From the NCBI GenBank assembly GCA_017532155.1, contig JAFXJP010000010.1, positions 1 through 46,866 of the forward strand: a DNA stretch of 46,866 nt. Reading direction: 5' to 3'. Positions within the stretch are counted from its first letter, which is position 1, and every line of letters begins with the position of its first letter. A model generated the notes under the pieces. That model was not told the DNA's origin. It made no database searches and saw only the letters and a list, made by a program, of their open reading frames with translations. Below, piece by piece: positions 15,952-43,115 of this stretch. The stretch is from Clostridia bacterium. Its GTDB lineage: Bacteria; Bacillota; Clostridia; Christensenellales; Aristaeellaceae. A program made the translations under genes and the position numbers.

Positions 15952-15964
15952 ACAAATGCATTCA

Positions 15965-16036
15965 CATGACTGACGGATTTCGCGGGATACCGCGGGGGAG
16001 TGTGGATACTATGAAAGCCGACCGTCTGGGCAATTC
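15965..16036 (+). promoter_or_regulatory. ZTP (pfl motif) riboswitch
   Basis: The leader carries the two conserved blocks of the pfl RNA. The 5' block is TGACTGACGG followed by a GC-rich hairpin ending in CGGGGGAGTG. The 3' block is GCCGACCGTCTGGGCAA at 16017-16033. GACGG near 15972 can pair with CCGTC near 16022. ZTP signals low 10-formyl-tetrahydrofolate; pyruvate formate-lyase makes formate for that pool, and the motif was named from this gene association. No covariance search was run. Confidence 0.85.
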
Positions 16037-16068
16037 AATTTTTGCATGAAGTTGAATTGTCCTTTTTT
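16028..16068 (+). terminator. Riboswitch-controlled intrinsic terminator
   Basis: GGGCAATTCAA (16028-16038) pairs with TTGAATTGTCC (16052-16062; one G-U) and is followed by six T's. The 5' arm includes the conserved CTGGGCAA of the ZTP aptamer, so ligand binding should block terminator formation and permit pflB transcription. Confidence 0.75.
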
Positions 16069-16084
16069 ATTTGGACAATTCAAC
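16051..16084 (+). repeat. Second perfect hairpin sharing an arm with the terminator
   Basis: GTTGAATTGTCC (16051-16062) also pairs perfectly with GGACAATTCAAC (16073-16084) across a T-rich loop. The terminator's 3' arm thus has two possible partners. The hairpin ends about six bases before the pflB ribosome site. Confidence 0.7.
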
Positions 16085-16104
16085 CGAAAGAAGGAGGATC
16101 AGCC

Positions 16105-23684: not shown

Positions 23685-23721
23685 GCTTTGGCCCGGGAGA
23701 AATCTCCGGGCCAAAGCTTTT
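23685..23721. terminator. Bidirectional terminator
   Basis: A long stem of about 15 bp (23685-23700 with 23702-23716, one bulged G), T-run to the right and A/T-rich flank to the left. It serves the XRE gene and the convergent MocR-like gene. Confidence 0.8.
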
Positions 23722-24802
23722 ACTTATTCATTTCTTTGCGGATGCTTCTGCGCACGCGGTTGATATGCCGCTCAAAGTCGCCGCTGTTGATCAGCTCGGT
23801 CAGCACGTATTGCTCAAAGGTCGGCACAGTGCAGGAGTAAAAGCCCAGCTTTTCTTCAAAGGGCTGGACGAGCTTTTGCGGCAAAACCATATAGCCTACG
23901 CGCATGGAGGGCGAAATGGTGCGGGAAAAGGTATTGAGGTAAATCACATTATCGTGATCTGCCAGCACAAACAGCGGCTCCATGGGCTGCGAGGAAACGG
24001 AAAACTCCGAGCCATAGTCCGACTCGATGATAAAGCGCACGCCGGCACTGGACCAGCGGATGTATTCATGCCGCTTGGAGGCCGAGGCGGTGATGCCGCT
24101 GGGATAGCTGCGGTAGGGCGTGGTGTGCAGCACGTCGGCGTGCGATTGCCGCAGGGCCAGGCTGTCGATGCCGTCGCTGGAAAAGGGCAGCAATTCGCAG
24201 GTGACGTGGGCGGCATGATAAATCCTTTCAATTTTTTCATACGAGGGCGTTTCAATGGCATATACTTTGTCCCGGCCAAGCAGGCTCACAATGAGGCCGT
24301 AGAGATATTCTGCGCCAGAGCCGATGATAATCTGCGCTGTTGAAACGTGAATGCCGCGGTTGCGGGCAAGGTAGGCGCGGATGGCCTCGCGCAGCTCATC
24401 GCAGCCGGCGTTGGGGGATTTATCCAGGATCACGTCGTGATAATCTGTCAGCACTTTGCGGATGGTTTTGCTCAGAATGGCAACCGAAAAGTCGGGGTAA
24501 TCAGAGAGCGGCTGGTGCGCATGCACCCGGGTGCTGGCAGCGGCGGAGACGGCAAAGCCATCCGACGGGCGGAAAATGACAAAATAACCGCTGCGCTCAC
24601 GCGGCTCGGTATAGCCTTCGTCGCTGAGCAAGGCGTAGGCGTGCTCCACCGTAACGGTGCTGACCTCAAGCTCGTTGGCAAGCAGCCGCTTGGAGGGCAA
24701 TTTGCTGTTGTAAGGGAAAATGCCCTTGACGATGTCCTCCTTGATTTGCTTATAGATCTGCAGGTACGCAGGCCGCTGATTTTTGTCGATCACATACTTC
24801 AT
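23720..24802 (-). CDS. MocR-like (GntR-aminotransferase) regulator, lysine-less and shortened
   Basis: A 360-residue protein. Residues 10-75 form a GntR winged helix (KLPSKRLLANELEVSTVTVEHAY); about 100-360 resemble the fold-type I aminotransferase domain of MocR/PdxR/GabR regulators (GSGAEYLYGL, IESDYGSEF). Two oddities are visible. The PLP-binding Lys of the family's F-S-K-T motif is Arg294 (TFSRTISPSMRVG). The protein also ends about 100 residues short of the usual 450-480, with a clean TAA and terminator. It is divergent from an ECF S component, with TGGTTAT repeats between. It may bind ligand without a Schiff base, or be decaying. Confidence 0.82.
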   Translation of the reverse strand: MKYVIDKNQRPAYLQIYKQIKEDIVKGIFPYNSKLPSKRLLANELEVSTVTVEHAYALLSDEGYTEPRERSGYFVIFRPSDGFAVSAAASTRVHAHQPLSDYPDFSVAILSKTIRKVLTDYHDVILDKSPNAGCDELREAIRAYLARNRGIHVSTAQIIIGSGAEYLYGLIVSLLGRDKVYAIETPSYEKIERIYHAAHVTCELLPFSSDGIDSLALRQSHADVLHTTPYRSYPSGITASASKRHEYIRWSSAGVRFIIESDYGSEFSVSSQPMEPLFVLADHDNVIYLNTFSRTISPSMRVGYMVLPQKLVQPFEEKLGFYSCTVPTFEQYVLTELINSGDFERHINRVRRSIRKEMNK

Positions 24803-24803
24803 C

Positions 24804-24868
24804 TGGTTATATTATTTTCTCCTGAATTGGTTATTTTATATCATCAGATATATTGTATACTATAACCA
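24804..24868. promoter_or_regulatory. Putative MocR-type operator: two direct and one inverted TGGTTAT
   Basis: TGGTTAT at 24804-24810 and 24828-24834 and its inverse ATAACCA at 24862-24868. This matches the known PdxR/GabR layout of direct repeats plus an inverted copy. The rightward -10 TATACT (24856-24861) lacks a good -35, as expected for an activated promoter. Confidence 0.5.
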
Positions 24869-24894
24869 CGCAATCGGCAAGGAGGTATTTTTTG

Positions 24895-25443
24895 ATGAAG
24901 AAGACCAGGTTTAATGCGTACACGCTGTCTTTTATGGGCGTGATGATCGCCATTATTTATGTGGTGACGATGTTCCGTTTTCCGCTGCTGGGCTCCAAGG
25001 TGCATTTTGCCAACAGCATGTGTCTGCTTTCTGGCCTGCTTTTCGGGCCGCAGTTCGGCGCGCTGGCGGCGGGCCTGGGCTCGGCGATTTACGATGTGTT
25101 TAACGGCTACACCTTTATTGACGCGCTGATCACATTTGCCTGCAAGGGCGCGATGGCGTATGTGTGCGCGGTGATTGCCCAGCGCAACGAGAGCTTTGTG
25201 CGCGTTTGCGTGGCCTGCGTGGTGGGCGCGCTGACATATGTGGCGCTGTACATGCTCAAAACGTTTATTTTCCAGGCCTTTGTGTATGCTTTCCCCATGG
25301 ATACCGTCTGGGCGACGATGCTGAGCAAGTTCATCCCTTCCATCATCAACGCGGGCTTTGCGATGGTGGTAACGCCCGTGCTGATGCGCGCGATTTTCCC
25401 GATGCTCAAAGCGACGGGCATGCTGGAGAAGATGAAGGCGTAA
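24895..25443 (+). CDS. ECF transporter S component
   Basis: A 182-residue integral membrane protein with about six helices, the substrate-binding S unit of a group II ECF vitamin transporter. Features include the FMGVMIAIIYVVTMF first helix and the long conserved loop HFANSMCLLSGLLFGPQFGALAAGLGSAIYD. The ATG at 24895 follows AAGGAGG. No energising EcfAAT genes are nearby, so it must share a module encoded elsewhere. Divergence from a PdxR/MocR-like regulator suggests a vitamin B6-type or related substrate; that is inference from context only. Confidence 0.87.
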   Translation: MKKTRFNAYTLSFMGVMIAIIYVVTMFRFPLLGSKVHFANSMCLLSGLLFGPQFGALAAGLGSAIYDVFNGYTFIDALITFACKGAMAYVCAVIAQRNESFVRVCVACVVGALTYVALYMLKTFIFQAFVYAFPMDTVWATMLSKFIPSIINAGFAMVVTPVLMRAIFPMLKATGMLEKMKA

Positions 25444-25966: not shown

Positions 25967-28264
25967 TTACAGCTTATTTCTCATAATTTTTCCCGACACC
26001 GTCTTGGGCAAGCCATCGGAGAATACAATAATTCTGGGATACTTATAGGGCGCGGTGCGGCGCTTGACGTAATCCTGAATTTCCTTTTTCAGTTCATCGC
26101 TGGGCTCTTTGCCCTTGAGCACGATCGTCGCCTTGACCACCTGCCCGCGGATGGGATCGGGCGCAGCGGTCACGCCGCACTCGAGGATGTAGGGCAATTC
26201 CATCAATACCGATTCGATCTCAAACGGCCCGATGCGGTAGCCCGAGGATTTGATCACATCGTCCACGCGGCCTACGTACCAGTAGTAGCCGTCCTCGTCG
26301 CGCCAGGCGGTGTCGCCCGTGTGATAGAGGCCGTCCTTCCAGGTTTCGGCCGTCTTCTCCTCGTCGCGGTAATAGTCCGTCGCCAGACCGCAGGGCAATC
26401 CGTCCTCAATGCGCGCAACGATTTCGCCCGTCTCGCCCGCCGCCACCGGCATGCCCTGCTCGTTGACGATATCAATATCATACAGCGGCACGGGCTTGCC
26501 CATGGAGCCCATCTTGGGCTCGGTGCCGATCAGGTTGCCGATCATGACGGTGGATTCCGACTGACCAAAGCCCTCCATGAGCTTGAGGCCTGTCGCCTCC
26601 TGGAACTTGAGGTATACCTCGGGATTGAGCGCCTCGCCCGCGATGGTAGCGTGCTCAATGGAGCTTAGATCGTACTTCGTAATATCCTCGCGGATGAGCA
26701 TGCGGTACATCGTCGGCGGCGCGCAGAAGGTGGTGATGTGGTACTTGCCAAACATCGGCAGAATGTCCGCCGCATCAAAGCGGTCAAAGTCATAGGCAAA
26801 GACCGCAGCCTCGTTCAGCCACTGGCCGTACAACTTGCCCCAGGCCGCCTTGGCCCAGCCGGTGTCGGAGATGGTCAGGTGCAAGCCCTCGGGATTGACG
26901 CACTGCCAGTATCTGGCCGTGATGAAATGCCCCAGCGGATACTTGAATGAGTGGCTGGCAATCTTGGGATTGCCGGTGGTGCCGGAGGTGAAATACATCA
27001 GCATGCGGTCGTCGCCGCAGGCGGAATCCTCCGTGCGGAAGTAGTGCGAGGAATAAATCTTGTACTCCTCGTCAAAGCTGCGCCAGCCCGCACGCGCGCT
27101 ATTGACCATCAGGCGGTTGATAACGCATGTGCACTTGTCGGCAGCCTTCGCGGCCTCCTCCGCCACGTCGCCGTCGGGGGTAATGATGATGGTGTTGATG
27201 CCCGCCTTGTTGAAGCGGTATTCAAAATCCTTTTCCTTGAGCTGGTTGGTAGCCGGAATGGCAATCGCGCCCAGCTTGCACAGGCCCATCATGCAGATCC
27301 AGAACTGATAATGGCGCTTCAAAACCAGCATCACGCGGTCGCCCTTTTTGATCCCCAGCGAAGAGAAATAATTGGCTGCGCGGTTGGATTCGCGGGAAAT
27401 ATCCTTGAAGGTGAAGCGGCGCTCCTCCTTGTCACGGGAGATATGCAAAAGAGCCAGTTTGTCGGGCTGCTTTTTCGCGATTTCGTCCACGATATCAAAG
27501 GCAAAGTTGAAGGTGTCTTCGTAATTGAAGGAGATGGCCTGCAGCGCGCCGCGGCTGTTTTCCACGGCGTTTATGTACTTTTCCCACACGCGCTCGGCGT
27601 TTTTCTGCACGGGCACAGGCACCACTTCGGGTACGGGCAGATCAATCTTTTCGTCCTTGGCGGGCGCAGATTCATCGGTGGGCTTGATGACGATGGCATA
27701 GAACCACGCATCCTCGCCGCCGACTGCCACCATGCCGTGGGGCGTGGAGCTGTCATAATAAATGCTGTCGCCGGCGGAGAGCACCTCGATATGCTCGCCA
27801 ATCTGAATTTTGAGCTTGCCCTGCAGCACGATGTCGCACTCCTGACCGGAGTGGCTGGTCAGCTCGATGTCGCCGTATTCCATCTCGCGGCTGTACTCGG
27901 CGCGCACGAACAGCGGGTCCGTTGCGCGGTTGCGGAACTGGGCGGCCAGGTTGTAATAGATCATGCCGTGCGCCTGCTCAATGCGCTGACCGGCGCCCGA
28001 GCGCGTGAGCGTATAGCGCGACAGACGCGGGCTGGTGCCCTCGATGATGTCCGTTACGTCAACGCTAAGCGCCGAGGCGCAGCGATACAGGAAGGCGAAG
28101 TTCAGGTCCACCTCGCCCGCCTCGCAAGCTATATATTCCGCCAGGGATACGCCGGTTTTCACCGCCATATCCTCTTCCGACCAGCCCTCAATCAGGCGCA
28201 GCTCACGAATACGGCTGGCCATTTCGTGCAATTTAAAGGTAAGGCCTGTCATTTTGCTGTCCAT
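25967..28264 (-). CDS. XRE-cupin-acyl-CoA synthetase fusion
   Basis: A 765-residue three-domain protein. Residues about 15-70 form an XRE helix-turn-helix (MAVKTGVSLAEYIACEAGEVD). Residues about 100-195 form a cupin (SGQECDIVLQGKLKIQIGEH, STPHGMV). From about 235 on it is an AMP-forming acyl-CoA synthetase with the P-loop FTSGTTGNPK, MEGFGQSES, YHTGDTAWRD and the late Lys in PKTVSGKIMRN. The N-terminal half has the layout of XRE-cupin repressors. ATG 28264 follows GGAGGG. It is controlled by a T-box leader, so it answers an uncharged tRNA, probably Val. I infer it activates a branched short-chain acid. Confidence 0.88.
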   Translation of the reverse strand: MDSKMTGLTFKLHEMASRIRELRLIEGWSEEDMAVKTGVSLAEYIACEAGEVDLNFAFLYRCASALSVDVTDIIEGTSPRLSRYTLTRSGAGQRIEQAHGMIYYNLAAQFRNRATDPLFVRAEYSREMEYGDIELTSHSGQECDIVLQGKLKIQIGEHIEVLSAGDSIYYDSSTPHGMVAVGGEDAWFYAIVIKPTDESAPAKDEKIDLPVPEVVPVPVQKNAERVWEKYINAVENSRGALQAISFNYEDTFNFAFDIVDEIAKKQPDKLALLHISRDKEERRFTFKDISRESNRAANYFSSLGIKKGDRVMLVLKRHYQFWICMMGLCKLGAIAIPATNQLKEKDFEYRFNKAGINTIIITPDGDVAEEAAKAADKCTCVINRLMVNSARAGWRSFDEEYKIYSSHYFRTEDSACGDDRMLMYFTSGTTGNPKIASHSFKYPLGHFITARYWQCVNPEGLHLTISDTGWAKAAWGKLYGQWLNEAAVFAYDFDRFDAADILPMFGKYHITTFCAPPTMYRMLIREDITKYDLSSIEHATIAGEALNPEVYLKFQEATGLKLMEGFGQSESTVMIGNLIGTEPKMGSMGKPVPLYDIDIVNEQGMPVAAGETGEIVARIEDGLPCGLATDYYRDEEKTAETWKDGLYHTGDTAWRDEDGYYWYVGRVDDVIKSSGYRIGPFEIESVLMELPYILECGVTAAPDPIRGQVVKATIVLKGKEPSDELKKEIQDYVKRRTAPYKYPRIIVFSDGLPKTVSGKIMRNKL

Positions 28265-28546
28265 TGCAACACCCTCCAGTACATAAGAAAACCGCCTCAA
28301 AGAAGCTTCTTTGAGACGGACAATCAATCCGCGGGACCACTCAAATTGCGCTTATCGCGCCCCTCAGGGCTCCATCAAGCCCTTGGCCTTTTACGCAGGC
28401 TCACGGGAGGCTCTACTCACTTGCGTTTTCTGCACTCCTGCTCGGAAGCGACGGCTTTGAAAAACGATCTGCACAGCCTTGCACCTGCCGGCTGCTCTCT
28501 GAAGCGATCTATTTTCGCCCTCTTCGTCATCGCATTGTTTGAAATT
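28265..28546 (-). promoter_or_regulatory. T-box leader upstream of the acyl-CoA synthetase fusion
   Basis: On the minus strand the Stem I block AGAGAGCAGCCGGCAGGTG (28500-28482) leads to a 3' side containing GTC then GCTTCCGAGCAGGA. The T-box core TGAGTGGTCCCGCGG follows, and then a terminator of 14-bp arms (28292-28305 with 28306-28319) plus TTTTCTT. Nine bases before GAGC, in the same register as the second T-box of this window, stands GUC, a Val codon. The specifier call is by alignment of the two leaders only. Confidence 0.85.
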
Positions 28547-28552
28547 ATATGT

Positions 28553-28581
28553 ATGATACAAAAATATTGGGATGCTGTCAA
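28553..28581 (-). promoter_or_regulatory. Promoter of the T-box leader
   Basis: On the minus strand TTGACA (28576-28581), 17-base spacer, TATCAT (28553-28558). Confidence 0.7.
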
Positions 28582-29032: not shown

Positions 29033-29193
29033 TACGCCCTCTTTGGAGGGCTACACCTCATCAGGCTCGCTTTGCTCGCCAGCTTCCCCTCGAGGGGAAG
29101 CCTTTAGTACTGCGCAGAGGAAAGCCTTCCCCTTGAGGGGAAGGTGTCATAGCTTTGCTATGACGGATGAGGTGTAGCCGCCGCAGCGGCGTT
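29033..29193 (+). mobile_element. MITE-like palindromic element M, copy 1
   Basis: Left end TACGCCCTCTTTGGAGGGC then CTACACCTCATC; right end GATGAGGTGTAG then CCGCCGCAGCGGCG, forming terminal inverted repeats. Inside are TTCCCCTCGAGGGGAA and a second, related TTCCCCTTGAGGGGAA. It lies between darA and holB, ending about 30 bases before the holB start. Confidence 0.75.
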
Positions 29194-34389: not shown

Positions 34390-34419
34390 TTGACATGCGG
34401 CCCTTTTTTCTGCTATATT
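34390..34419 (+). promoter_or_regulatory. Promoter of the second T-box operon
   Basis: TTGACA (34390-34395), 18-base spacer, TATATT (34414-34419), with an extended TG before the -10. Confidence 0.7.
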
Positions 34420-34425
34420 TTTTCG

Positions 34426-34692
34426 TATCTAATTGCGATGACGGAACTACGCTTCGTCCTTTGGCAGCCAAGAGAGCCGGCGGTTGGTGGAAGCCGGTAT
34501 GCGGGGGCGAATGCGATCTCCTTCCCGAGCAGGAACCCTGAACCAGTAGTAAGGGCTCCCGGTTTTGCCCCGTTATCATGGCAAAAAGCTTAGTGGAGCT
34601 TGAGTGCCCGCTTGTCGGGAAATTGGGTGGTACCGCGGTATAATGTGTTATATCGTCCCTGAAGCCTTTGGCTTTGGGGACTTTTTGTTTTT
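34426..34692 (+). promoter_or_regulatory. T-box leader of the branched-chain amino acid operon
   Basis: Canonical T-box: AGAGAGCCGGCGGTTGGTGG (34470-34489), the antiterminator core GGGTGGTACCGCGG (34625-34638) and a terminator GTCCCTGAAGCC/GGCTTTGGGGAC followed by TTTTTGTTTTTT (34655-34692). At the specifier position, nine bases before GAGC, stands CUC (Leu); AUC (Ile) three bases upstream is the less likely reading. Low charged tRNA-Leu should switch on the operon from 34714. Confidence 0.92.
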
Positions 34693-34713
34693 TGAGAAAT
34701 GGAGGCGTGCTCT

Positions 34714-36126
34714 ATGAAAAATATATTTGTGATGGATCAGACGCTGTGCCTGGCGGCCAGGGGCGGCGCGCAGACGCTTTCCTTCCGCGAAAAGATGGAG
34801 ATCGGCAAGTGGATTGCCAGGATGCATCCCGATATGCTGGACGCCGGTGAAATCAAAAATGAAAAGGCCGACGCAGTTTTGTTGCATGCCATTGCGCCGG
34901 AATTGAAGGAGATTATGTTGGGCTGCCGCTGCCAGCTGAATGCTGCGGCGATTGACTGCGCGGTCAGCGCGCTGTCTGCGGCGGAAAATCCCTGCATTAT
35001 TTTGACCGTACCCGCCTCCCCCGTGCGCATGGAGTATGACGGACATAAAAAGGCTCCGGCCATGCTGGAGGCTATTGGCGAAATGACGCGCTACGCCGCC
35101 GAAAAGTGTGCGTGCGTAGCGGTGTGTCTGGAGGACGCCACCCGCGCGGAAAATGAATTTTTGCTCTCTGCCATCAAAACGGCTGCCGACAGCGGCGCGA
35201 AGATGGTGATCGTGCAGGATATGGTCGGCTCGCTTTTGTCTGACGAGTTTTCTGCCTTTATTGAAAATGCCAGGGCGGCTGTGCCTGCGGGCGTCAAGCT
35301 GATTGCCGGCTGCAGCAATGACATGGACATGGCGGTGGCGGATACGGTTTCCGCGCTCCTCCATGGCGCAGACGGCGCGTGCACGGCGCTTTGCAGCAAG
35401 GAATGCGCCGATACAGCGGCGCTGGCGCATGCCATGCATCAGCGCGGCGACAGGCTGGGACTTGACTGCACGCTCAATCATACCGAGCTCAATCGCGCGG
35501 CGGGACAGATTGAAAAGCTGCTGACCGCCCGCAAATCGGTGTCCACGCCCTTTGCCGGCAGCATGCCCGACGAGGATGCTGGCAACTCCGTATTGACCGC
35601 CGGCGATGACATCGCCAAGGTCGCCGCCGCTGTCAAGAGCCGCGGGTATGATCTGTCGCAGGAGGACATCAAGCATGTTTCGGATGCTGTTGCCAAGCTG
35701 CCTGTCAAAAAGGAAGTGACCGCCCGCGAGCTGGACGCGATCATCGCCTCCGCCGCCATGCAGGTGCCGCCGACGTATAAGCTGGTCAGCTATCATGTGA
35801 ACTGCAGTAATATCATCGCGCCCACCGCGCATGTGGTGCTCAAAAAGGATGACAAGGAGCTGCAGGGCCTGTCCGTGGGCGACGGTCCCATCGACGCCGC
35901 TTTCCTGGCCATCGAGCAGATCGCCGGACGTCACTTTGAACTGGACGATTTCCAGATTCAGTCCGTTACCGAGGGCCGCGGCGCGATGGGCGATGCGCTG
36001 GTCAAGCTGCGTCATGAGGGCCGCCTCTACTCCGGCAAGGGCCTGTCTACCGATATCCTCGGCGCCTCCATCAGCGCCTATATCAACGCCCTCAACAAGA
36101 TTGCCTATGAGGAGAGCAACGTATGA
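34714..36126 (+). CDS. LeuA-like protein without catalytic residues (pseudo-isopropylmalate synthase)
   Basis: A 470-residue protein with the layout of 2-isopropylmalate synthase: a barrel-like N-terminal part (1 to about 270), a linker, and a C-terminal LeuA allosteric domain (about 365-470, VGDGPIDAAFLAIEQI ... GRGAMGDALVKL ... STDILGASISAYINALN). The catalytic motifs are gone. The usual T-L-R-D-G-E-Q near the start reads TLCLAARGGAQ, and the metal-binding H-C-H-N-D reads GCSND (about residue 203). It therefore cannot work as a normal synthase. First gene after a Leu-type T-box, it may be a leucine sensor or partner subunit. ATG 34714 follows GGAGG. Confidence 0.85.
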   Translation: MKNIFVMDQTLCLAARGGAQTLSFREKMEIGKWIARMHPDMLDAGEIKNEKADAVLLHAIAPELKEIMLGCRCQLNAAAIDCAVSALSAAENPCIILTVPASPVRMEYDGHKKAPAMLEAIGEMTRYAAEKCACVAVCLEDATRAENEFLLSAIKTAADSGAKMVIVQDMVGSLLSDEFSAFIENARAAVPAGVKLIAGCSNDMDMAVADTVSALLHGADGACTALCSKECADTAALAHAMHQRGDRLGLDCTLNHTELNRAAGQIEKLLTARKSVSTPFAGSMPDEDAGNSVLTAGDDIAKVAAAVKSRGYDLSQEDIKHVSDAVAKLPVKKEVTARELDAIIASAAMQVPPTYKLVSYHVNCSNIIAPTAHVVLKKDDKELQGLSVGDGPIDAAFLAIEQIAGRHFELDDFQIQSVTEGRGAMGDALVKLRHEGRLYSGKGLSTDILGASISAYINALNKIAYEESNV

Positions 36127-38627
36127 AGATTGCATTTTCCACTTACGGCTGGCAGCGCCTGAGCTGGCAGGAAATCTGCGCGCTGGCGCTGGAGATGCAC
36201 TTTGACGGCATCGAAATTTATGATGTGGACGCGCCCTGCTTTGAGGGCGTGCTGGGCGCGCAAAGCGCGCGCACGGCGCGGAAGCTGCGCGAAAAAGGCC
36301 TGGAGATTGCCTGCGTGGACGCCGTGAGCAACCTTTCAGACCCCGATACCGAAAAAGTAAAAGACGATATTTTGCATGTCATTGATATGGCCGCGCGCCT
36401 GCACGCGCCCTATGTCCGCCTGCGTGCGCAGGAGGGCCAGGCGGATGAAGAGGGCATTCGCGCGCTGATTGCAAGCGTGCTGCCCGCTGCCGAAAGTGCG
36501 CGCGTGACGCTGCTGGTGGAAACCGCCGGCGTATACGCCGATACCAAGAAGCTGGCGCATCTGCTGGATTCCTTTGCGGATGACAGCCTGGGCGCGCTGT
36601 GGGATATTCACCACACCGTGCTGCGCGCCGGCGAATCGCCGGATGAGACCGTCAAGAACCTGGGCGCGTACATCCGCCACACGCACATTAAGGACTCCTG
36701 CCGCAACGCTCAGGGCGAGATTGAATACTGCCTGATGGGCGAAGGCACGCTGCCGGCGCAGGAGGTGTTTGACGCGCTGCGTTCGCTCAATTACGCGGGC
36801 TTCTGCTCGATGGAAATGCGCCCCGACTGGCTGGGCGAGCTGGGCGATGAGGACATTGTCTTCACGCACTTTGCCGCCTTCATGAAGCGCTTTGACCGTG
36901 TGCCCGAGTGGCAGAATCACCTGTACCGCAACAAGGCCGGTACGGGCCGCTATGTGTGGAAAAAGGACACGCTGATCCCCGAAACCTTTCCGCAGGTGCT
37001 GGACCGCATGGTGAAGGAATTTCCCGATCAATTGGCCTTCAAGTATACGACGCTGGATTACACCCGCACATATTCCCAGTTCCGCGACGATGTGGATGAA
37101 TTTGCCCGCGCGCTGATTGCCCTTGGCGTAAAGCCCGGCTACAAGGTGGCTGTGTGGGCCACCAACGTGCCGCAATGGTACATCGCCTTCTGGGCAGCCA
37201 CCAAGATCGGCGCGATTCTGGTGACGGTCAACACCGCCTACAAAATTGCCGAGGCGGAGTATCTGTTCCGGCAGTCCGATACGCACACGCTGATCATGGT
37301 GGAAAGCTACCGCGACAGCAATTATGCCGATGTTATGCGCCGCCTGGCCCCCGAAATGATGGATACGCAGCCCAGCAAGCCCCTGCACTGCAAAAAGCTG
37401 CCTTTCCTGCGCAACATCATCACCGTAGGATTCACCATGCCCGGATGCCTCACCTGGGAGGAAGCGCTGCCCTACGCCGACAAAACGCCCATCGAGGAAG
37501 TATACCGCCGCATGGCCGCCATCCGCGGCGACGACGTGTGCAACATGCAGTACACCTCCGGCACCACAGGCTTCCCCAAGGGCGTGATGCTCACGCATTA
37601 CAACGTGGTTAACAACGGCAAATGCATCGGCGACCGCATGGATTTAAGCACCGCCGACCGCATGATGATCCAGGTGCCCATGTTCCACTGCTTTGGCATG
37701 GTGCTGGCAATGACGGCCTCCATGACGCACGGCGCGACGCTTTTCCCGATACCGTACTTTTCGCCCAAGCCCTCGCTGGCGTGCATTCACAATGAGCGCA
37801 TCACCGCCTTCCACGGCGTGCCGACGATGTTCATTGCCCTGCTTTCGCACAAGGACTTTGAAAAGACGGACTTTTCCTACATGCGCACGGGCATCATGGC
37901 GGGCTCGCCCTGTCCCATCAAGGTGATGCAGGAAGTGGTCGACCGCATGCACATGAAGGAAATTACCATCGTGTACGGCCAGACCGAGGCCTCGCCCGGC
38001 TGCACGATGTCCTCGACCGACGATTCGCTTGAGGTGCGCGTGAGCACTGTGGGTCGTCCGCTGCCTGAGATCGAGTGCAAGATCGTCGATCCCGAAACGG
38101 GCGAGGAATTGCCCGACAACGTAACGGGCGAGTTTGTCGCCCGCGGCTACAACATCATGAAGGGCTATTACAAGATGCCCAAGGCCACCGCCAGCGCCAT
38201 TGATAAAGACGGCTGGCTGCATACGGGCGATCTGGCCTGCCGCACGCCGGAGGGCAATTTCCGCATCACGGGCCGCCTCAAGGATATGATCATTCGCGGC
38301 GGCGAAAATATTTACCCCAAGGAGATTGAGGAATTTATCTACACCCATGAGAAGGTCAGCGACGTACAGGTCATCGGCGTGCCCGACCGCCAGTACGGCG
38401 AGGAAATCATGGCCTGGGTGATCCTCAAAAAGGGCGAGGAGATGACCGAAGCCGAGCTCAAGGGCTTTGTCGCCGCCAACATGGCCAAGCACAAGGTGCC
38501 GCGCTATGTGACGTTTGTGGATGCTTTCCCCACCAACGCCGCCGGCAAAATCCTCAAATACAAAATGCGCGAGATGGCTGTGGAGATGCTGGGCCTCAAA
38601 AAGGACGCGGCTATTGAAACGGCGTAA
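36123..38627 (+). CDS. TIM-barrel isomerase-like / acyl-CoA synthetase fusion
   Basis: An 834-residue fusion. Residues 1 to about 265 resemble the xylose isomerase-like sugar phosphate isomerase/epimerase barrel. The metal-site acids and histidine look intact: LLVETAG, ALWDIHHT, RHTHIKDS and CSMEMRPDW. Residues about 275-834 are a complete AMP-forming acyl-CoA synthetase (MQYTSGTTGFPKGVML, YGQTEASPG, LHTGDLACR, NAAGKILKYKM). ATG 36123 overlaps the preceding stop, so the two genes are coupled. In this operon it probably supplies an acyl-CoA to the oxidoreductase downstream. Why a barrel is attached is unknown. Confidence 0.9.
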   Translation: MKIAFSTYGWQRLSWQEICALALEMHFDGIEIYDVDAPCFEGVLGAQSARTARKLREKGLEIACVDAVSNLSDPDTEKVKDDILHVIDMAARLHAPYVRLRAQEGQADEEGIRALIASVLPAAESARVTLLVETAGVYADTKKLAHLLDSFADDSLGALWDIHHTVLRAGESPDETVKNLGAYIRHTHIKDSCRNAQGEIEYCLMGEGTLPAQEVFDALRSLNYAGFCSMEMRPDWLGELGDEDIVFTHFAAFMKRFDRVPEWQNHLYRNKAGTGRYVWKKDTLIPETFPQVLDRMVKEFPDQLAFKYTTLDYTRTYSQFRDDVDEFARALIALGVKPGYKVAVWATNVPQWYIAFWAATKIGAILVTVNTAYKIAEAEYLFRQSDTHTLIMVESYRDSNYADVMRRLAPEMMDTQPSKPLHCKKLPFLRNIITVGFTMPGCLTWEEALPYADKTPIEEVYRRMAAIRGDDVCNMQYTSGTTGFPKGVMLTHYNVVNNGKCIGDRMDLSTADRMMIQVPMFHCFGMVLAMTASMTHGATLFPIPYFSPKPSLACIHNERITAFHGVPTMFIALLSHKDFEKTDFSYMRTGIMAGSPCPIKVMQEVVDRMHMKEITIVYGQTEASPGCTMSSTDDSLEVRVSTVGRPLPEIECKIVDPETGEELPDNVTGEFVARGYNIMKGYYKMPKATASAIDKDGWLHTGDLACRTPEGNFRITGRLKDMIIRGGENIYPKEIEEFIYTHEKVSDVQVIGVPDRQYGEEIMAWVILKKGEEMTEAELKGFVAANMAKHKVPRYVTFVDAFPTNAAGKILKYKMREMAVEMLGLKKDAAIETA

Positions 38628-38641
38628 GAAAGTGATATAAT
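38614..38641 (+). promoter_or_regulatory. Internal promoter before ilvE
   Basis: TTGAAA (38614-38619), 16-base spacer, TATAAT (38636-38641), partly inside the end of the fusion gene. It could express ilvE independently of the T-box. Confidence 0.5.
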
Positions 38642-38677
38642 AAAGAAGTGTTGATAAAAGGATAAGGAGGAACTCCC

Positions 38678-39745
38678 ATGGAAATCCGTATAGAAAAAGC
38701 ACAGAACCTCAAAGTCAAGCCCGATGAATCTGCCCTGGGCTTTGGCCGTCATTTTACTGATCATATGTTCCTGATGGATTATGATATCGACAAGGGCTGG
38801 TACGATCCCCGCATCGTGCCCTACGGCCCCATTGCGCTGGATCCCTCCAGCACCGTGTTCCATTACGGCGCGGAGATTTTTGAGGGCATGAAGGCCTACC
38901 GCCGCGCCGACGGTCAGGTGCAGTTCTTCCGTCCGATGGACAACTTCAAGCGTCTGCAGGATTCTGCCGAGCGTCTGTGCCTGCCCATCGTCGATCCCGA
39001 TTTTATGCTGGAAGCGATGAAGGCGCTGGTCAAGGTGGATGAAGATTGGGTGCCCCATAAGGAAGGCACCTCGCTGTACATCCGTCCCTTCATCTTCGGC
39101 GCCGATCCTTTCCTGGGCGTGCATACGGTGCACCACAGCCTGCTGGTGATCATTCTCTCCCCCGTGGGCAGCTACTACAAAGAGGGCATCAACCCCGTGC
39201 GCATCATGGTGGAAGATGAAGACGTGCGCGCTGTCCGCGGCGGCACGGGCTACGCCAAGTGCGGCGGCAACTACGCCGCAAGCCTTCGCGCCGGCAAGAA
39301 GGCCGAGGAAAAGGGCTACAGCCAGGTGCTGTGGCTGGACGGCGTGGAGCGCAAGTACATTGAAGAAGTGGGCGCGATGAACGTGATGTTCAAGATAAAC
39401 GGCACCGTCGTCACCCCCGCGCTGCTGGGCAGCGTGCTTCCCGGCATCACCCGCCGCAGCTGCATCCAGCTGCTCAAGGACTGGGGCGTACCGGTGGAAG
39501 AGCGCCAGCTGAGCGTAGACGAGCTTAAGGAAGCCATTGCAAACGGCACGCTGGAAGAAGCTTTCGGCTGCGGCACGGCGGCGGTTGTTTCGCCCATCGG
39601 CGAACTGAACATCGAGGGCAAGCCCTACGAAATCGCCGGCAACAAGATCGGCCCGCTGACCCAGAAGCTCTACGACACCCTCACCGGCATCCAGTGGGGC
39701 AAGATCGCCGATCCCTACGGCTGGATTGTGCCGCTCCATGACTAA
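38678..39745 (+). CDS. ilvE: Branched-chain amino acid aminotransferase
   Basis: PLP enzyme of fold type IV, 355 residues, interconverting Val, Leu and Ile with their 2-oxo acids using glutamate/2-oxoglutarate. Family features include HYGAEIFEGMKAYR, the catalytic Lys in GVERKYIEEVGAMNVMF, FGCGTAAVVSPIG and the N-terminal FTDHMFLMDYD. It matches the longer, mammalian-like BCAT subgroup. The start has AAGGAGG. It connects 2-oxo acids of the VOR enzyme to amino acids, and the next gene overlaps its stop. Confidence 0.96.
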   Translation: MEIRIEKAQNLKVKPDESALGFGRHFTDHMFLMDYDIDKGWYDPRIVPYGPIALDPSSTVFHYGAEIFEGMKAYRRADGQVQFFRPMDNFKRLQDSAERLCLPIVDPDFMLEAMKALVKVDEDWVPHKEGTSLYIRPFIFGADPFLGVHTVHHSLLVIILSPVGSYYKEGINPVRIMVEDEDVRAVRGGTGYAKCGGNYAASLRAGKKAEEKGYSQVLWLDGVERKYIEEVGAMNVMFKINGTVVTPALLGSVLPGITRRSCIQLLKDWGVPVEERQLSVDELKEAIANGTLEEAFGCGTAAVVSPIGELNIEGKPYEIAGNKIGPLTQKLYDTLTGIQWGKIADPYGWIVPLHD

Positions 39746-40415
39746 GCTTTTTGATCGCAAGCCCCATCGCGTGACGCTCTTTGCCGGGCACTATGGCAGC
39801 GGCAAGACCACGGCGGCGGTCAATTATGCGCTGTGGCTGAAAGCGCAGGGGCATGACACGGCGATTGCGGATCTTGACATCGTCAACCCCTACTTCCGCA
39901 CGCGTGACAGCCTGGATGCACTCAGCGCTGCGGGCGTGCGCCTGATCGCATCGCCCTTTGCGGGCAGCAATGTAGATGCGCCTGCCCTGCCCGGCGAAGC
40001 GTATGCCGTGGTGGAGGATACATCCCTTCACGCGGTGATTGACGTGGGCGGTGATGACCGCGGCGCGCTGGCGCTGGGCCGGTATGTGCCCGCGATCAAA
40101 GACGAGGGCGATTACGATTTTCTGTGCGTGATCAATCGCTTCCGCCCGCTGACGCAGGATGCTGACAGCACCATCGAAGTGCTGCGCGAGATTGAGACGG
40201 CCTGCAAGCTGCCCTTCACCGGCATCTGCGCGTGCTCGAATCTGGGTGATCTGACGAGCGCGGAGGATATCATCGCCTCGCAAGCGTACACGCAGGAAGT
40301 GGCAGAAAAGATGGGCTTGCCCATTGTGATGACCTGCGTGCCGGCGCATTTGATTGATAAGCTGGAAGGAATGGAGAATATCTTCCCCATCCGGCATCGT
40401 ACAAAGTTTATCTGA
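39738..40415 (+). CDS. P-loop ATPase associated with the 2-oxoacid oxidoreductase
   Basis: A 225-residue nucleotide-binding protein of the MinD/ParA/CobQ-like group. It has the Walker A FAGHYGSGKTTAAVNYAL at residues about 15-32, ADLDIVNPYFRTRD as switch-like segment and AVIDVGGDDRGA as Walker B. The body lacks a helix-turn-helix or membrane helix. ATG 39738 lies inside the end of ilvE (ATGACTAA), so the genes are coupled. Placed just before the VOR genes, a maturation or Fe-S/cofactor-loading role is plausible; I know of no proven function. Confidence 0.75.
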   Translation: MTKLFDRKPHRVTLFAGHYGSGKTTAAVNYALWLKAQGHDTAIADLDIVNPYFRTRDSLDALSAAGVRLIASPFAGSNVDAPALPGEAYAVVEDTSLHAVIDVGGDDRGALALGRYVPAIKDEGDYDFLCVINRFRPLTQDADSTIEVLREIETACKLPFTGICACSNLGDLTSAEDIIASQAYTQEVAEKMGLPIVMTCVPAHLIDKLEGMENIFPIRHRTKFI

Positions 40416-40419
40416 GGAT

Positions 40420-40500
40420 TACGCCGACTGCGGTCTGCTACACCTCATCCGGTGCGGTAAACCGCACCGGATGAGGTGTAGCGCCTCGCAAGGCGCGTTA
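40420..40500 (+). mobile_element. MITE-like palindromic element M, copy 3 (short form)
   Basis: Left end TTACGCCGACTGCGGTCTG then CTACACCTCATCCGGTGCGG; right end CCGCACCGGATGAGGTGTAG then CGCCTCGCAAGGCGCGTTA. The internal AGGGGAA palindromes of copies 1 and 2 are absent, so the two long arms now form one nearly perfect hairpin. It splits the operon between the ATPase gene and the oxidoreductase genes. Confidence 0.75.
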
Positions 40501-40545
40501 CCCTTTTAAAACAACAAAACTCACCACCAGAGAAAGAGGTGCGTT

Positions 40546-40761
40546 ATGGCAAAAGTAACCTTTGATACCGAGCGCTGCAAGGGCTGCGCGCTGTGCGTGG
40601 CAGCCTGTCCCAAGGGCATTGTATCCCTGTCTGACAGCGCCATCAACCAGAAGGGCTATCGCCCTGCGCAGGTGACCGATATGGAAAAGTGCATCGGCTG
40701 CGCGTCCTGCGCAATCATGTGCCCCGATTGCGTCATCACTGTGGAAAGGGAGGCCAAATAA
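40546..40761 (+). CDS. vorD: 2-oxoacid:ferredoxin oxidoreductase, ferredoxin-like delta subunit
   Basis: A 71-residue protein with two [4Fe-4S] motifs, CKGCALCVAACP and CIGCASCAIMCP, carrying electrons between the TPP site and ferredoxin. Its ATG follows AGAAAGAGGTG. It is one base from vorB and forms the first gene of a four-gene set. A read-through or a promoter within the palindromic element upstream must express it. The name vor rests on the ilvE context; kor would be the alternative. Confidence 0.9.
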   Translation: MAKVTFDTERCKGCALCVAACPKGIVSLSDSAINQKGYRPAQVTDMEKCIGCASCAIMCPDCVITVEREAK

Positions 40762-40762
40762 C

Positions 40763-41830
40763 ATGGAAAAAGTGCTCATGAAGGGTAATGAAGCCCTGGC
40801 TGAAGCCGCCATCATGGCTGGCTGCCGCCATTATTATGGCTATCCCATCACCCCTCAGACCGAAGTGGCCGCCTATATGGCCAAGCGCATGCCCAAGATC
40901 GGCGGCGTGTTCCTGCAGGCAGAAAGCGAAATTGCCGCCATTAACATGGTGATCGGCACCTCTGCCGCCGGCAAGCGCACGATGACCTCTTCGTCCTCCC
41001 CCGGAATCTCGCTCAAGAGCGAGGGCATTTCCTACCTCGCGGGCTGCGATCTGCCGGCGCTTGTTGTCAACGTCCAGCGCGGCGGCCCGGGCCTGGGCGG
41101 CATCCAGCCCTCGCAGTCCGACTATTTCCAGGCCACCAAGGCGCTGGGCCACGGCGATTTCCGCCGCATTGTGCTGGCGCCCGCCTCTGTGCAGGAAATG
41201 GCGTCGCTCACCTTCCTGGGCTTCGACCTGGCGGACGAATACCGCATGACGGTTATGATCCTCACTGACGGCACCATCGGTCAGATGATGGAGCCCGTCA
41301 GTCTGGACTTTGGTGAGCCCTGTGAGGCCGTCAAGGATTGGGCGACGGTGGGCCACAAGTGGGAGCGCAAGCCCAATATCATCACCTCCCTGTCGCTGCA
41401 GGCCGAGGAGCTTGAGCGCCAGAACGTCGAGCGCTACGAGCGCTATAAGGTTGTGGAAGAAAACGAAGTGCGCTACGAAGAGTATCGCATGGAGGACGCC
41501 GAAATCTGCGTGGTAGCCTTTGGCGTGTGCGCGCGCGTCGCCCGCAATGCCATTGAAGAGGCGCGCAAGATGGGCCTGAAGGTGGGCATGATCCGCCCCA
41601 TTACGCTCTGGCCCTTCCCCAAGGATGTGCTCAAGAAGGCTGCTGAAAAGTGCCACACCTTTGTGTCGGTGGAAATGTCCATGGGCCAGATGGTGGAGGA
41701 TATTGAACTGGCGATCCGCTGCCAGCGTCCCGTACTGTGCTGCTCGCGCGTGGGCGGCATCATTCCCTCGCCCGACGAGGTCGTTGAAAAGCTTCAGGAA
41801 GCTGCGAAGATGGGAGGTAAGGCCGAATGA
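40763..41830 (+). CDS. vorB: 2-oxoacid:ferredoxin oxidoreductase alpha subunit (2-oxoisovalerate type)
   Basis: Encodes 355 residues: the pyrimidine-binding and transketolase C-terminal domains of the alpha chain. Typical stretches are MKGNEALAEAAIMAGCRHYYGYPITPQTE, FLQAESEIAAINMVIG, VNVQRGGPGLGG and MIRPITLWPFPKD. These match the VorB/KorA group rather than pyruvate oxidoreductases, which are usually single-chain in Clostridia. The start follows GGGAGG. Its stop overlaps the beta gene start (ATGA). Confidence 0.93.
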   Translation: MEKVLMKGNEALAEAAIMAGCRHYYGYPITPQTEVAAYMAKRMPKIGGVFLQAESEIAAINMVIGTSAAGKRTMTSSSSPGISLKSEGISYLAGCDLPALVVNVQRGGPGLGGIQPSQSDYFQATKALGHGDFRRIVLAPASVQEMASLTFLGFDLADEYRMTVMILTDGTIGQMMEPVSLDFGEPCEAVKDWATVGHKWERKPNIITSLSLQAEELERQNVERYERYKVVEENEVRYEEYRMEDAEICVVAFGVCARVARNAIEEARKMGLKVGMIRPITLWPFPKDVLKKAAEKCHTFVSVEMSMGQMVEDIELAIRCQRPVLCCSRVGGIIPSPDEVVEKLQEAAKMGGKAE

Positions 41831-42576
41831 TCGTTTTTGAAAAGCCCAAGGCGCTGACGGATGCGCCCATGCATTACTGCCCCGGCTGCACGCACGGCAT
41901 TATCCATCGTCTGGTGGCCGAAGCGCTGGACGAGCTGGGCGTCACCGGTGAGACCATCGGCGTAGCGCCCGTTGGCTGCGCGGTGTTTGCCTACAATTAT
42001 TTTAATTGCGATATGGTGGAGGCGGCGCATGGCCGCGCGCCGGCGGTAGCCACCGGCATCAAGCGCGCTGATCCCTCAAAAATCGTCTTTACCTATCAGG
42101 GCGACGGCGACCTGGCGGCCATCGGTACCGCTGAGACTGTACATTCCGCTGCCCGCGGTGAAAACATCACCGTGATCTTTGTCAACAACGCCATTTATGG
42201 CATGACCGGCGGCCAGATGGCGCCAACCTCCCTTCCCGGCCAGGTGACGCAAACTTCCCCCTACGGCCGCGATCCCAAGACGGTCGGTTATCCCGTGAAG
42301 GTATGTGAGCTGCTTTCCAATGTGGACGGCGCGACGTACCTGGAGCGCGTAGCGGTCAACAACGTCAAGAACGTGCGCGCCGCCAAGAAGGCCATCCTCA
42401 AGGCTTTCCGCAATCAGCTGGAGGGCAAGGGCTTCTCGCTGATTGAGGTGATCTCCACCTGCCCGACCAACTGGGGCATGACGCCGCAGCAGGCGACGGA
42501 ATGGGTGGACAGCAACATGATCCCCTACTACCCGCTGGGTGTGTACAAGGATAAATACGGGGAGGCGGCAAAATGA
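41827..42576 (+). CDS. vorA: 2-oxoacid:ferredoxin oxidoreductase beta subunit (TPP-binding)
   Basis: The 249-residue thiamine diphosphate-binding chain: YCPGCTHGIIHRL with a cluster cysteine at the start, the TPP motif GDGDLAAIGTAE ... VNNAIYGMTGGQ, and the C-terminal WGMTPQQA. It forms the catalytic site with VorB. Both ends overlap neighbours by four bases, giving strict co-translation. Confidence 0.93.
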   Translation: MIVFEKPKALTDAPMHYCPGCTHGIIHRLVAEALDELGVTGETIGVAPVGCAVFAYNYFNCDMVEAAHGRAPAVATGIKRADPSKIVFTYQGDGDLAAIGTAETVHSAARGENITVIFVNNAIYGMTGGQMAPTSLPGQVTQTSPYGRDPKTVGYPVKVCELLSNVDGATYLERVAVNNVKNVRAAKKAILKAFRNQLEGKGFSLIEVISTCPTNWGMTPQQATEWVDSNMIPYYPLGVYKDKYGEAAK

Positions 42577-43115
42577 AAGGTACCAAGCAGATTCTGATCT
42601 CGGGCTTTGGCGGTCAGGGCGCGCTGTTTGCGGGCAAATTCCTGGCCTACGCCGGCCTTTTGCAGGGCCTGGAAGTCAGCTGGCTGCCCTCCTACGGCCC
42701 CGAAATGCGCGGCGGCACGGCCAGCTGCTCGGTGATTATTTCCGACAGCCCCATCGGCTCGCCCATCATTACGCATCCCGATGTGCTGGTGGCCATGAAC
42801 CTGCCCAGCATGGATAAGTTTGAGCCTCAGGTGAACGCCGGCGGCACGATCATTTATGATTCTTCGCTCATTTCCCGTGCGCCTGCACGCGAGGATGTGA
42901 ACAACTGTGCTGTGCCCGCCACCAAAATGGCTACCGACGCAGGCGTTAAGACCCTGGCGAACATGCTGCTCATCGGCCGCCTGCTGCGCGAAGTGGATCT
43001 GGCGGACGACGAGATGGTGAATCAGGTGCTCAGCAAAGTTGTATCTGCCAAGCACGCGGATTTGCTGGATCTCAACAAGCAGGCCATCAAACTGGGGTAT
43101 GAGTACAAAGAATAA
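42573..43115 (+). CDS. vorC: 2-oxoacid:ferredoxin oxidoreductase gamma subunit
   Basis: A 180-residue gamma chain with [20 protein letters not shown] near the start, then [21 protein letters not shown], both hallmark segments of the CoA-contacting gamma domain. It completes the four-subunit complex, which links a branched 2-oxo acid plus CoA to acyl-CoA, CO2 and reduced ferredoxin, or runs in reverse. It is the last gene of the operon; a copy of repeat family R starts after its stop. Confidence 0.93.

Follow-up and report, generated by a model that had tools for sequence, protein, structure and literature searches.

Rumen bacteria reportedly carboxylate branched acids to branched-chain amino acids (BCAAs), a conversion described by Allison and co-workers in the 1960s. 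The accessible part of PMC7356843, which cites Allison and others, gives isovalerate, isobutyrate and 2-methylbutyrate as the rumen precursors of leucine, valine and isoleucine, respectively. In the literature searched, which included few subscription papers, no gene system was found assigned to this isoacid route, even though reports of rumen bacteria using isoacids go back to the 1960s. Here we analyse a stretch of 46,866 nucleotides from a Clostridia bacterium (contig JAFXJP010000010.1 of assembly GCA_017532155.1; hereafter the window), in which a leucine-type T-box precedes genes for a pseudo-LeuA (pLeuA), a fused acyl-CoA synthetase, IlvE, a P-loop NTPase and VorDBAC, and a valine-type T-box precedes a second synthetase. 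We consider it very probable, as the best explanation of the sequences, that these genes form a tRNA-gated salvage pathway that would build BCAAs from branched short-chain acids by reductive carboxylation. Its acids and products would be those of the rumen isoacid route, which the window's enzymes for activation, 2-oxoacid synthesis and transamination fit; the genes, the control by tRNA, the use of one synthetase per acid and pLeuA were not found described for that route in the literature searched.

T-boxes switch on when the cognate amino acid is scarce. The window leaders share Stem I, specifier, UGGN antiterminator, terminator and transcriptional wiring with the T-box family (RF00230), but precede acid-activating synthetases and a 2-oxoacid synthase rather than the canonical leu and ilv genes. 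A Leu T-box precedes true leuA in Geobacter (accessible parts of PMC2494555 and PMC2700814), and the accessible part of the former, a T-box survey, contains no mention of CoA, acyl, oxidoreductase, ketoisovalerate or ilvE. pLeuA resembles LeuA in the order of its domains and in its LeuA_dimer regulatory domain but has lost the catalytic motifs across 41 proteins. The synthetase of the valine arm, named XCA for its XRE, cupin and acyl-CoA synthetase domains, resembles MacsMa of Methanosarcina acetivorans (3ETC; 615 bits) in its GW[G]K motif and in a Trp that aligns near Trp259; it differs in its N-terminal XRE and cupin domains, its T-box control and the existence of an Ala version for the valine arm. 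Staphylococcus aureus MbcS, whose cut-off XCA does not reach, is a single enzyme for isobutyrate and 2-methylbutyrate that serves fatty acid synthesis; it activates isovalerate poorly (accessible part of PMC10026030), in keeping with a dedicated enzyme in the leucine arm. To the initial annotation of the window, the arrangement looked undescribed. This appears to hold for the gene wiring, as T-box control of the isoacid route, three-arm wiring, pLeuA and the Ala/Gly switch set out below have no description among the papers listed in the literature searched, a result that suggests novelty without proving it; the chemistry is already known, as are T-boxes, VOR and IlvE.

T-box leaders and genes of the window

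The window genome carries T-boxes with leucine, valine and isoleucine specifiers, each 5' of an acyl-CoA synthetase gene. The leucine and valine arms lie within the window and comprise the following features.

34390..34419, + strand: promoter-like TTGACA-18-TATATT before the Leu T-box (11/12 sigma-70 consensus matches, TG before the second hexamer)
34429..34663, + strand: Leu T-box leader, specifier CUC, discriminator-pairing UGGU (Rfam RF00230; P1 stem)
34655..34681, + strand: intrinsic terminator of the Leu T-box, 12 pairs and a T run, overlapping the antiterminator 3' arm
34714..36126, + strand: pLeuA, degenerate HMGL-like domain and conserved LeuA_dimer regulatory domain (domain and family models, alignment)
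36123..38627, + strand: TIM-synthetase fusion, AP_endonuc_2 (about residues 1-270) and AMP-forming acyl-CoA synthetase (AMP-binding; domain models)
38678..39745, + strand: ilvE, branched-chain aminotransferase (NF009897, 487.8 bits against a cut-off of 307; TIGR01123, 411 against 250)
39735..40415, + strand: P-loop NTPase, CbiA/ParA-like (Pfam matches below cut-offs)
40546..40761, + strand: vorD, 2x[4Fe-4S] ferredoxin-like subunit (domain and family models)
40763..41830, + strand: vorB, 2-oxoacid:ferredoxin oxidoreductase alpha subunit (NF005507 VorB, 523.7 bits against a cut-off of 399)
41827..42576, + strand: vorA, beta subunit, binding thiamine pyrophosphate (domain and family models)
42573..43115, + strand: vorC, gamma subunit (domain and family models)
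28553..28581, - strand: promoter-like TTGACA-17-TATCAT before the Val T-box (11/12 sigma-70 consensus matches)
28309..28539, - strand: probable Val T-box leader, specifier GUC (Rfam 79.5 bits, E 1e-15, below the gathering score of 93)
28292..28319, - strand: intrinsic terminator of the Val T-box, 12 pairs, overlapping the antiterminator 3' arm (sequence)
25967..28267, - strand: XCA, XRE helix-turn-helix, cupin and acyl-CoA synthetase, Ala at residue 472 (domain and family models, alignment)

The Leu leader scores 96.3 bits (E 5e-20), over the gathering score; the element at 28539-28309 misses that threshold, and its structural parts together with its conservation in relatives argue for a T-box. 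Specifiers were read by a script rule fixed on the position of the P1 stem, plus readings by eye, the four pairs GGAA/UUCC setting CUC (Leu) and GAAG/CUUC setting GUC (Val). Both leaders have a specifier, a UGGN box and a competing terminator, and both carry UGGU in the T-loop, which presumably fits a discriminator A in the tRNA by the pairing rule. Control is predicted to be transcriptional, through antitermination, as are the binding of tRNA and the response to its charging. The third T-box (80.6 bits, AUC) precedes an XCA paralogue gene at G000:C9:761-3007 (- strand). The initial annotation had placed a leucine-type T-box before the pseudo-LeuA, fusion, ilvE, P-loop and vorDBAC genes and a valine-type T-box before the enzyme at 25967, and both calls are borne out; the isoleucine T-box with its putative 2-methylbutyrate-activating XCA lends support to a third arm that it had not included.

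VorB passes its cut-off and the four subunits stand in the order DBAC; VorD, VorA and VorC match the models listed only below cut-off. By the VorB model and operon order, vorDBAC would encode VOR (3-methyl-2-oxobutanoate:ferredoxin oxidoreductase), with substrate and ferredoxin coupling as predicted for that enzyme. An activating enzyme, a 2-oxoacid synthase and an aminotransferase, the set required to turn isoacids into BCAAs, are encoded together at the window locus and in relatives, in which the P-loop NTPase gene often adjoins vorD. The order pLeuA-TIM-synthetase is a constant unit across family and named loci (both samples are defined below), and the one-frame fusion is found in 115 of the 118 loci with a TIM match above 80 bits (121 loci examined), the other three being ended by a contig edge. 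The TIM barrel (36123-36930, + strand) is xylose-isomerase-like; an HxH pair and one Asp are kept in most members, other metal-site residues not in all.

The regulatory domain of pLeuA is well preserved: LeuA_dimer (PF08502) scores 110.8 bits against a cut-off of 24.9, and GDGPIDAAF...HHYELDDFQIQ recurs in most of the 41 proteins compared. Against the bacterial LeuA models listed, pLeuA reaches 139-237 bits where cut-offs are 517-748, below every one of them, although the HMGL-like fold is detectable at 65 bits. When the 41 were set against seven true LeuA proteins (L077 being left out), the HxH pair was intact in none, L044 retaining one His; the GERAGN stretch was missing; the metal-binding Asp of LRD was lost in all but L035; and the DATR stretch was largely retained. 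We infer that pLeuA is a dead enzyme retained as a leucine-binding regulator of the leucine arm.

XCA clades, specifier codon and residue 472

XCA relatives often occur as two copies per genome; the copies nearer the window enzyme are of the valine type and the others of the isoleucine type (AUC), bar one switched lineage. Among 99 XCA proteins, T-boxes label 38 as Val and 48 as Ile, with one G115 gene counted twice among the 48 (L053 and L135), a CTC label at L160 that is a locus-edge artefact, and six specifiers entered by hand (L083, L086, L113, L114, L116 and L122). A quick maximum-likelihood tree of the 99 resolves a Val clade and an Ile clade, each with a value of 99 in the Shimodaira-Hasegawa-like approximate likelihood ratio test (SH-aLRT). 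Of the 42 rows in the Val clade, 36 are labelled Val and 6 have no T-box or an unread one; of the 54 in the Ile clade, 47 are labelled Ile, 2 Val, and 5 are without T-box, unread, at an edge or artefactual. Three rows belong to neither clade: L123, an Ile row on a long branch, and two that lack a T-box. The three label groups require 10 changes on this tree against 40.5 in shuffles. Each acyl-CoA synthetase gene thus stands behind the T-box of the amino acid that its proposed acid would yield.

The two Val members inside the Ile clade (L107 and L120, of G069 and G094) are sisters from one genus and carry a Val (GUA) T-box and Ala472; each of their genomes retains a second, Ile-type copy. In this lineage the T-box was switched after an XCA duplication, and the codon and the probable pocket residue changed together. 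Nine alignment columns split the two clades at more than 85% on both sides. The catalytic domain contains just one of these columns, residue 472 in GW[A/G]K. Both switched enzymes are Val-type at this column, which is true of none of the other eight; among 20 columns chosen less strictly, positions 75, 80 and 757 show the same pattern. Residue 472 is Ala in 38/38 Val and Gly in 48/48 Ile proteins, although these 86/86 readable cases represent about two independent events, not 86, which weakens the match as evidence for the pathway.

How might a single residue distinguish the acids? The Trp before residue 472 can be matched, by motif, to W309 of the acetyl-CoA synthetase from Salmonella, in which the next residue, V310, lines the acyl pocket (accessible part of PMC8511477). 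Residue 472 is therefore probably in the acyl pocket as well, a placement by motif, not structure, which must likewise be counted on the side of doubt. By sequence, the closest solved relative of XCA is PDB 3ETC (614.9 bits, the next being 348.7), which carries Gly at this position and whose preferred substrate is 2-methylbutyrate (accessible part of PMC10455477). Trp454, present in 99/99 XCA, is likely the Trp259 of MacsMa discussed in the accessible part of the same paper, the alignment numbering being off by one. The T-box specifiers predict the smaller pocket (Ala) for isobutyrate and the larger (Gly) for 2-methylbutyrate, and we propose that the window XCA is the isobutyryl-CoA synthetase of the valine arm. 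Among NCBIfam models, XCA matches MbcS (NF047394) best, at 425.8 bits against a cut-off of 850; it is related to MbcS but is not classed as one.

The XRE and cupin domains of XCA (window 25967-28267, and L109) may act as a ligand sensor or autoregulator. Two Neobittarella homologues match XCA only from residue 227 onward.

Distribution of the arms and of canonical leu and ilv genes

Strong pLeuA matches (E <= 1e-71; 38-49% identity in other genomes) occur in 42 of the 120 genomes searched from the window organism's family, with the gene in pieces in two; weak matches typical of true LeuA occur in 35, and four genomes, the doubtful G079 among them, have both kinds. Comparison of 41 family loci (the window and 40 of the 41 other pLeuA loci) reveals a T-box core before pLeuA in 35, of which 33 were read by script (all Leu, CUC or CUG) and two by eye (both CUG). 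Because the core recurs in this way, the arrangement in the window is unlikely to be due to chance. The motif is not present in the other six, one of which is at a contig edge and one of which has pLeuA inside a vor-ilvE-pLeuA operon.

Among named genomes at least 566 stretches encode a pLeuA relative, possibly including true LeuA, and the best 80 were examined. Many come from metagenome-assembled genomes (MAGs) of rumen and gut Clostridia, the isolate Neobittarella massiliensis is included, and at least four, judged by the length of the contig and the position on it, duplicate family loci (L168, L177, L181 and L218, which are G037, G074, G099 and G104). Before the 80 pLeuA genes stand 42 readable Leu T-boxes and 6 unread ones, with 4 contig edges and 28 genes without a T-box; no pLeuA gene was read as having a non-Leu T-box. 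L182, counted among those without, gave a Leu specifier under a T-loop pattern that was judged wrong. The same 80 loci hold 57 XCA-like gene starts (17 Ile, 18 Val, 5 unread, 2 edge, 15 none), and several are full superclusters in which an Ile T-box with XCA, a Val T-box with XCA, the P-loop gene, vorDBAC, ilvE and a Leu T-box with pLeuA and the fusion stand together; in L163, for example, the T-boxes score 73.8, 100.1 and 133.6 bits. In six family genomes (L118, L122, L125, L128, L130 and L135) the P-loop-vorDBAC block directly follows a Val XCA, and a shared VOR can therefore sit under valine or leucine control.

Tandem T-box cores precede pLeuA in Neobittarella massiliensis (L171, 9763-9895) and in L209, where a script-read UUC element (putatively Phe) lies upstream of the Leu one. 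In Neobittarella massiliensis, a cultured carrier, the pLeuA T-box was read by eye as Leu, with one mismatch in P1, and that of one synthetase, also by eye, as Ile; neither ilvC nor leuB is over cut-off in this species. The pLeuA clusters of L195, L206 and L211, from MAGs titled Lentisphaeria or Lentisphaerae, lack a T-box motif, and in the tree L195 and L206 have XCA proteins placed at a great distance from all others; transfer or misbinning may account for these clusters. In L132, L133, L136, L141 and L142 a T-box-linked XCA lies divergent to a vor set of more remote kinship (VorB 46-49% identity); this XCA is Ile-type in four loci and the switched Val-type copy in L133.

Over curated cut-offs, ilvC was found in 41 of the 120 family genomes, ilvD in 40, LEU2-type leuC in 36 and leuB in 36. 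The leu genes tend to be missing where pLeuA is present: leuC and leuB each occur in 3/42 pLeuA genomes against 33/78 others (p 4.7e-5 for either), these and all following p-values treating related genomes as independent, which speaks against taking them at face value. The ilv genes behave similarly with respect to XCA, with ilvC in 3/38 XCA genomes against 38/82 (p 2e-5) and ilvD in 4/38 against 36/82 (p 3e-4); the 38 were drawn from 69 genomes matching at E <= 1e-150 and kept for an XRE-cupin-type match of at least 54% with no inner stops, contig-end fragments included. When the whole set of 69, with XCA-like matches of any kind, is used, the contrast is 8/69 against 33/51 for ilvC (p 1e-9) and 8/69 against 32/51 for ilvD (p 4e-9). 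Of the pLeuA genomes, 11 have ilvC or ilvD and 31 have neither; XCA occurs in 1 of the former and 28 of the latter (p 2e-6). For the most part, then, the leucine arm appears to go with the absence of leu genes and the valine and isoleucine arms with the absence of ilv genes. None of ilvC, ilvD, LEU2 and leuB is over cut-off in the five genomes of the window organism's genus. The window genome itself has no match to ilvC, LEU2 or true LeuA, in an assembly that is 82.5% complete, a figure that tempers such absences; it has an IlvD relative below cut-off (515 bits, cut-off 618) and a leuB match of only 20 bits.

Elsewhere in the window, a ZTP riboswitch (15956-16038, + strand, 61.9 bits) precedes a 764-aa frame at 16042-18336, and a palindrome with 26-nt arms, 88% complementary, lies at 29080-29146. 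A GntR/aminotransferase (MocR-type) regulator (23720-24802, - strand) stands beside a riboflavin-type S component of an energy-coupling factor (ECF) transporter (24853-25443, + strand), possibly as a vitamin uptake pair.

A proposed tRNA-gated salvage pathway and its alternatives

We envision a scenario whereby uncharged tRNA-Leu would cause the Leu T-box to antiterminate, so that the operon is transcribed. The TIM-acyl-CoA synthetase fusion, an AMP-forming enzyme, would then convert isovalerate to isovaleryl-CoA, VorDBAC would combine this with CO2 and reduced ferredoxin to give 2-oxoisocaproate, and IlvE would transaminate the product to leucine. The Val-T-box XCA (Ala472) would feed isobutyrate into the same VOR and IlvE for valine, and the Ile-T-box XCA elsewhere in the genome, with Gly at the 472 position, would feed in 2-methylbutyrate for isoleucine. 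pLeuA might regulate the leucine arm by binding leucine, and the cupin and XRE domains may do likewise for the other arms. The leaders and their specifiers, the gene content, the match of clade, codon and residue, the lost active-site motifs of pLeuA and the failure to find canonical genes can be read from the sequences themselves, while substrates, direction of flux and the role of pLeuA are those we infer from them; for the TIM domain and the P-loop protein, roles can at most be surmised. AMP-forming synthetases spend ATP to activate acids, and it is this property of the synthetases, together with their position behind Leu, Val and Ile T-boxes, that argues for the direction of synthesis. We also consider it somewhat more probable than the contrary that the replacement is complete, with three synthetases under end-product T-boxes, a single Ala/Gly switch that co-evolved with the codon, a shared VOR and IlvE, and a dead LeuA serving as leucine sensor without isopropylmalate chemistry.

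Could the synthetases serve another purpose? They might supply branched primers for membrane fatty acids, the T-boxes turning on when amino-acid-derived primers run out. The kinship of XCA with MbcS, its top NCBIfam match at 425.8 bits, is in keeping with this, given that MbcS routes isobutyrate and 2-methylbutyrate to fatty acid synthesis (accessible part of PMC10026030); yet XCA misses the MbcS cut-off, VOR and ilvE co-cluster with the synthetases in many loci and would have no role in such a scheme, and the system tends to occur where ilv and leu genes are not found, so that we regard a supply of primers as improbable. Fermentative breakdown, in which transamination of BCAAs and oxidation by VOR would yield acyl-CoA and, in the end, excreted acids, appears very improbable. 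Both VOR and IlvE can run in either direction, and VOR is usually assigned to fermentation, but T-boxes turn on under amino acid scarcity, the synthetases are AMP-forming activators, and no phosphotransacylase, acid kinase or ADP-forming ligase is among the nine annotated window proteins (relatives were not annotated for these).

We give hardly any credence to the alternative that pLeuA is still catalytic and makes a leucine precursor by different chemistry, the operon being a variant isopropylmalate route. The detectable HMGL-like fold, the largely retained DATR stretch and the LEU2-like/LEUD_arch gene pair of some pLeuA genomes would suit such an enzyme; the lack of an intact HxH pair in all 41 proteins and the loss of GERAGN, and of the LRD Asp outside L035, would not, nor would the finding that leuB is not over cut-off in 39/42 pLeuA genomes. 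The salvage pathway thus remains our preferred explanation, and the initial annotation, which had argued from T-box logic for an anabolic direction, is supported by the three T-boxes, the 86/86 match of residue and codon and the canonical-gene contrasts. It had also routed isobutyrate or isovalerate through the cluster; isovalerate to leucine remains the proposed route of the Leu operon, and isobutyrate would probably enter through the Val-T-box XCA, not the Leu operon.

Further observations weigh against the salvage pathway or restrict its reach. The specificity of the fusion, which we propose to be an isovaleryl-CoA synthetase, was assigned by elimination. A promoter-like TTGAAA-16-TATAAT (11/12) lies at 38614-38641 (+ strand), immediately 5' of ilvE, which may have its own promoter, although the region holds 5 promoter-like sites against 3.7 in shuffled sequence; and the gap between the P-loop gene and vorD holds a 44-nt inverted repeat (40415-40504), 77% complementary with a 17-nt perfect core that has no further copy in the window, which might serve as an attenuator or represent a mobile palindrome. 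For these reasons, sole control of ilvE-vor by the Leu T-box is uncertain in the window genome. Among the named pLeuA loci, 28/80 have no T-box motif; seven of these and one edge locus also gave no Rfam match at gathering level, a level that is blunt, as it misses the script-read Ile and Val elements of L164 too.

The gene contrasts have exceptions as well. With pLeuA, ilvC is weakly contrasted (9/42 against 32/78, p 0.04) and ilvD not significantly so (11/42 against 29/78, p 0.31). Two pLeuA genomes (G086 and G108) have leuB fragments of 352 and 351 bits, just under the cut-off of 353.2, and counting them gives 5/42 against 33/78 (p 8e-4). Nine pLeuA genomes carry a 430-bit LEU2-like gene; if these were counted as LeuC the contrast would be 12/42 against 35/78 (p 0.12). 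Taken by itself, the leuC contrast is thus fragile, and the argument depends on leuB. We did not count them as hidden LeuC, leuB being over cut-off in 0/9 of these genomes, which is a judgement rather than proof; the 351-bit fragment of G108 and a 250-bit full-length leuB relative in G091 speak against this exclusion. Of five such loci, the two annotated (L223 and L225) are both of hacA/IPMI_arch type with a LEUD_arch small subunit, and one adjoins malic enzyme. What is lost in the leuC contrast is made up for by the stronger contrast of the broad XCA set. Among 47 named pLeuA genomes, chosen from the 80 loci, 14 have ilvC and 6 have leuB, and replacement of the canonical genes is therefore not universal; the initial annotation's expectation that genomes with the cluster would lack ilvC, ilvD and leuCD proved largely right, with these exceptions.

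A corollary is that T-box-linked synthetases together with vorDBAC and ilvE would provide a genomic signature for the isoacid route, and that this gene wiring could make the route directly testable. More generally, riboswitch codons could be used to annotate enzyme substrates, and the switched XCA lineage would be a natural instance of joint change in a regulatory codon and a probable active-site residue. The organism's relatives live in animal guts, where branched acids are excreted by other microbes, and the signature predicts gut Clostridia that depend on cross-fed isovalerate, isobutyrate and 2-methylbutyrate. This would have a bearing on the feeding of isoacids to ruminants and on the consumption, not just the production, of branched acids in the gut.

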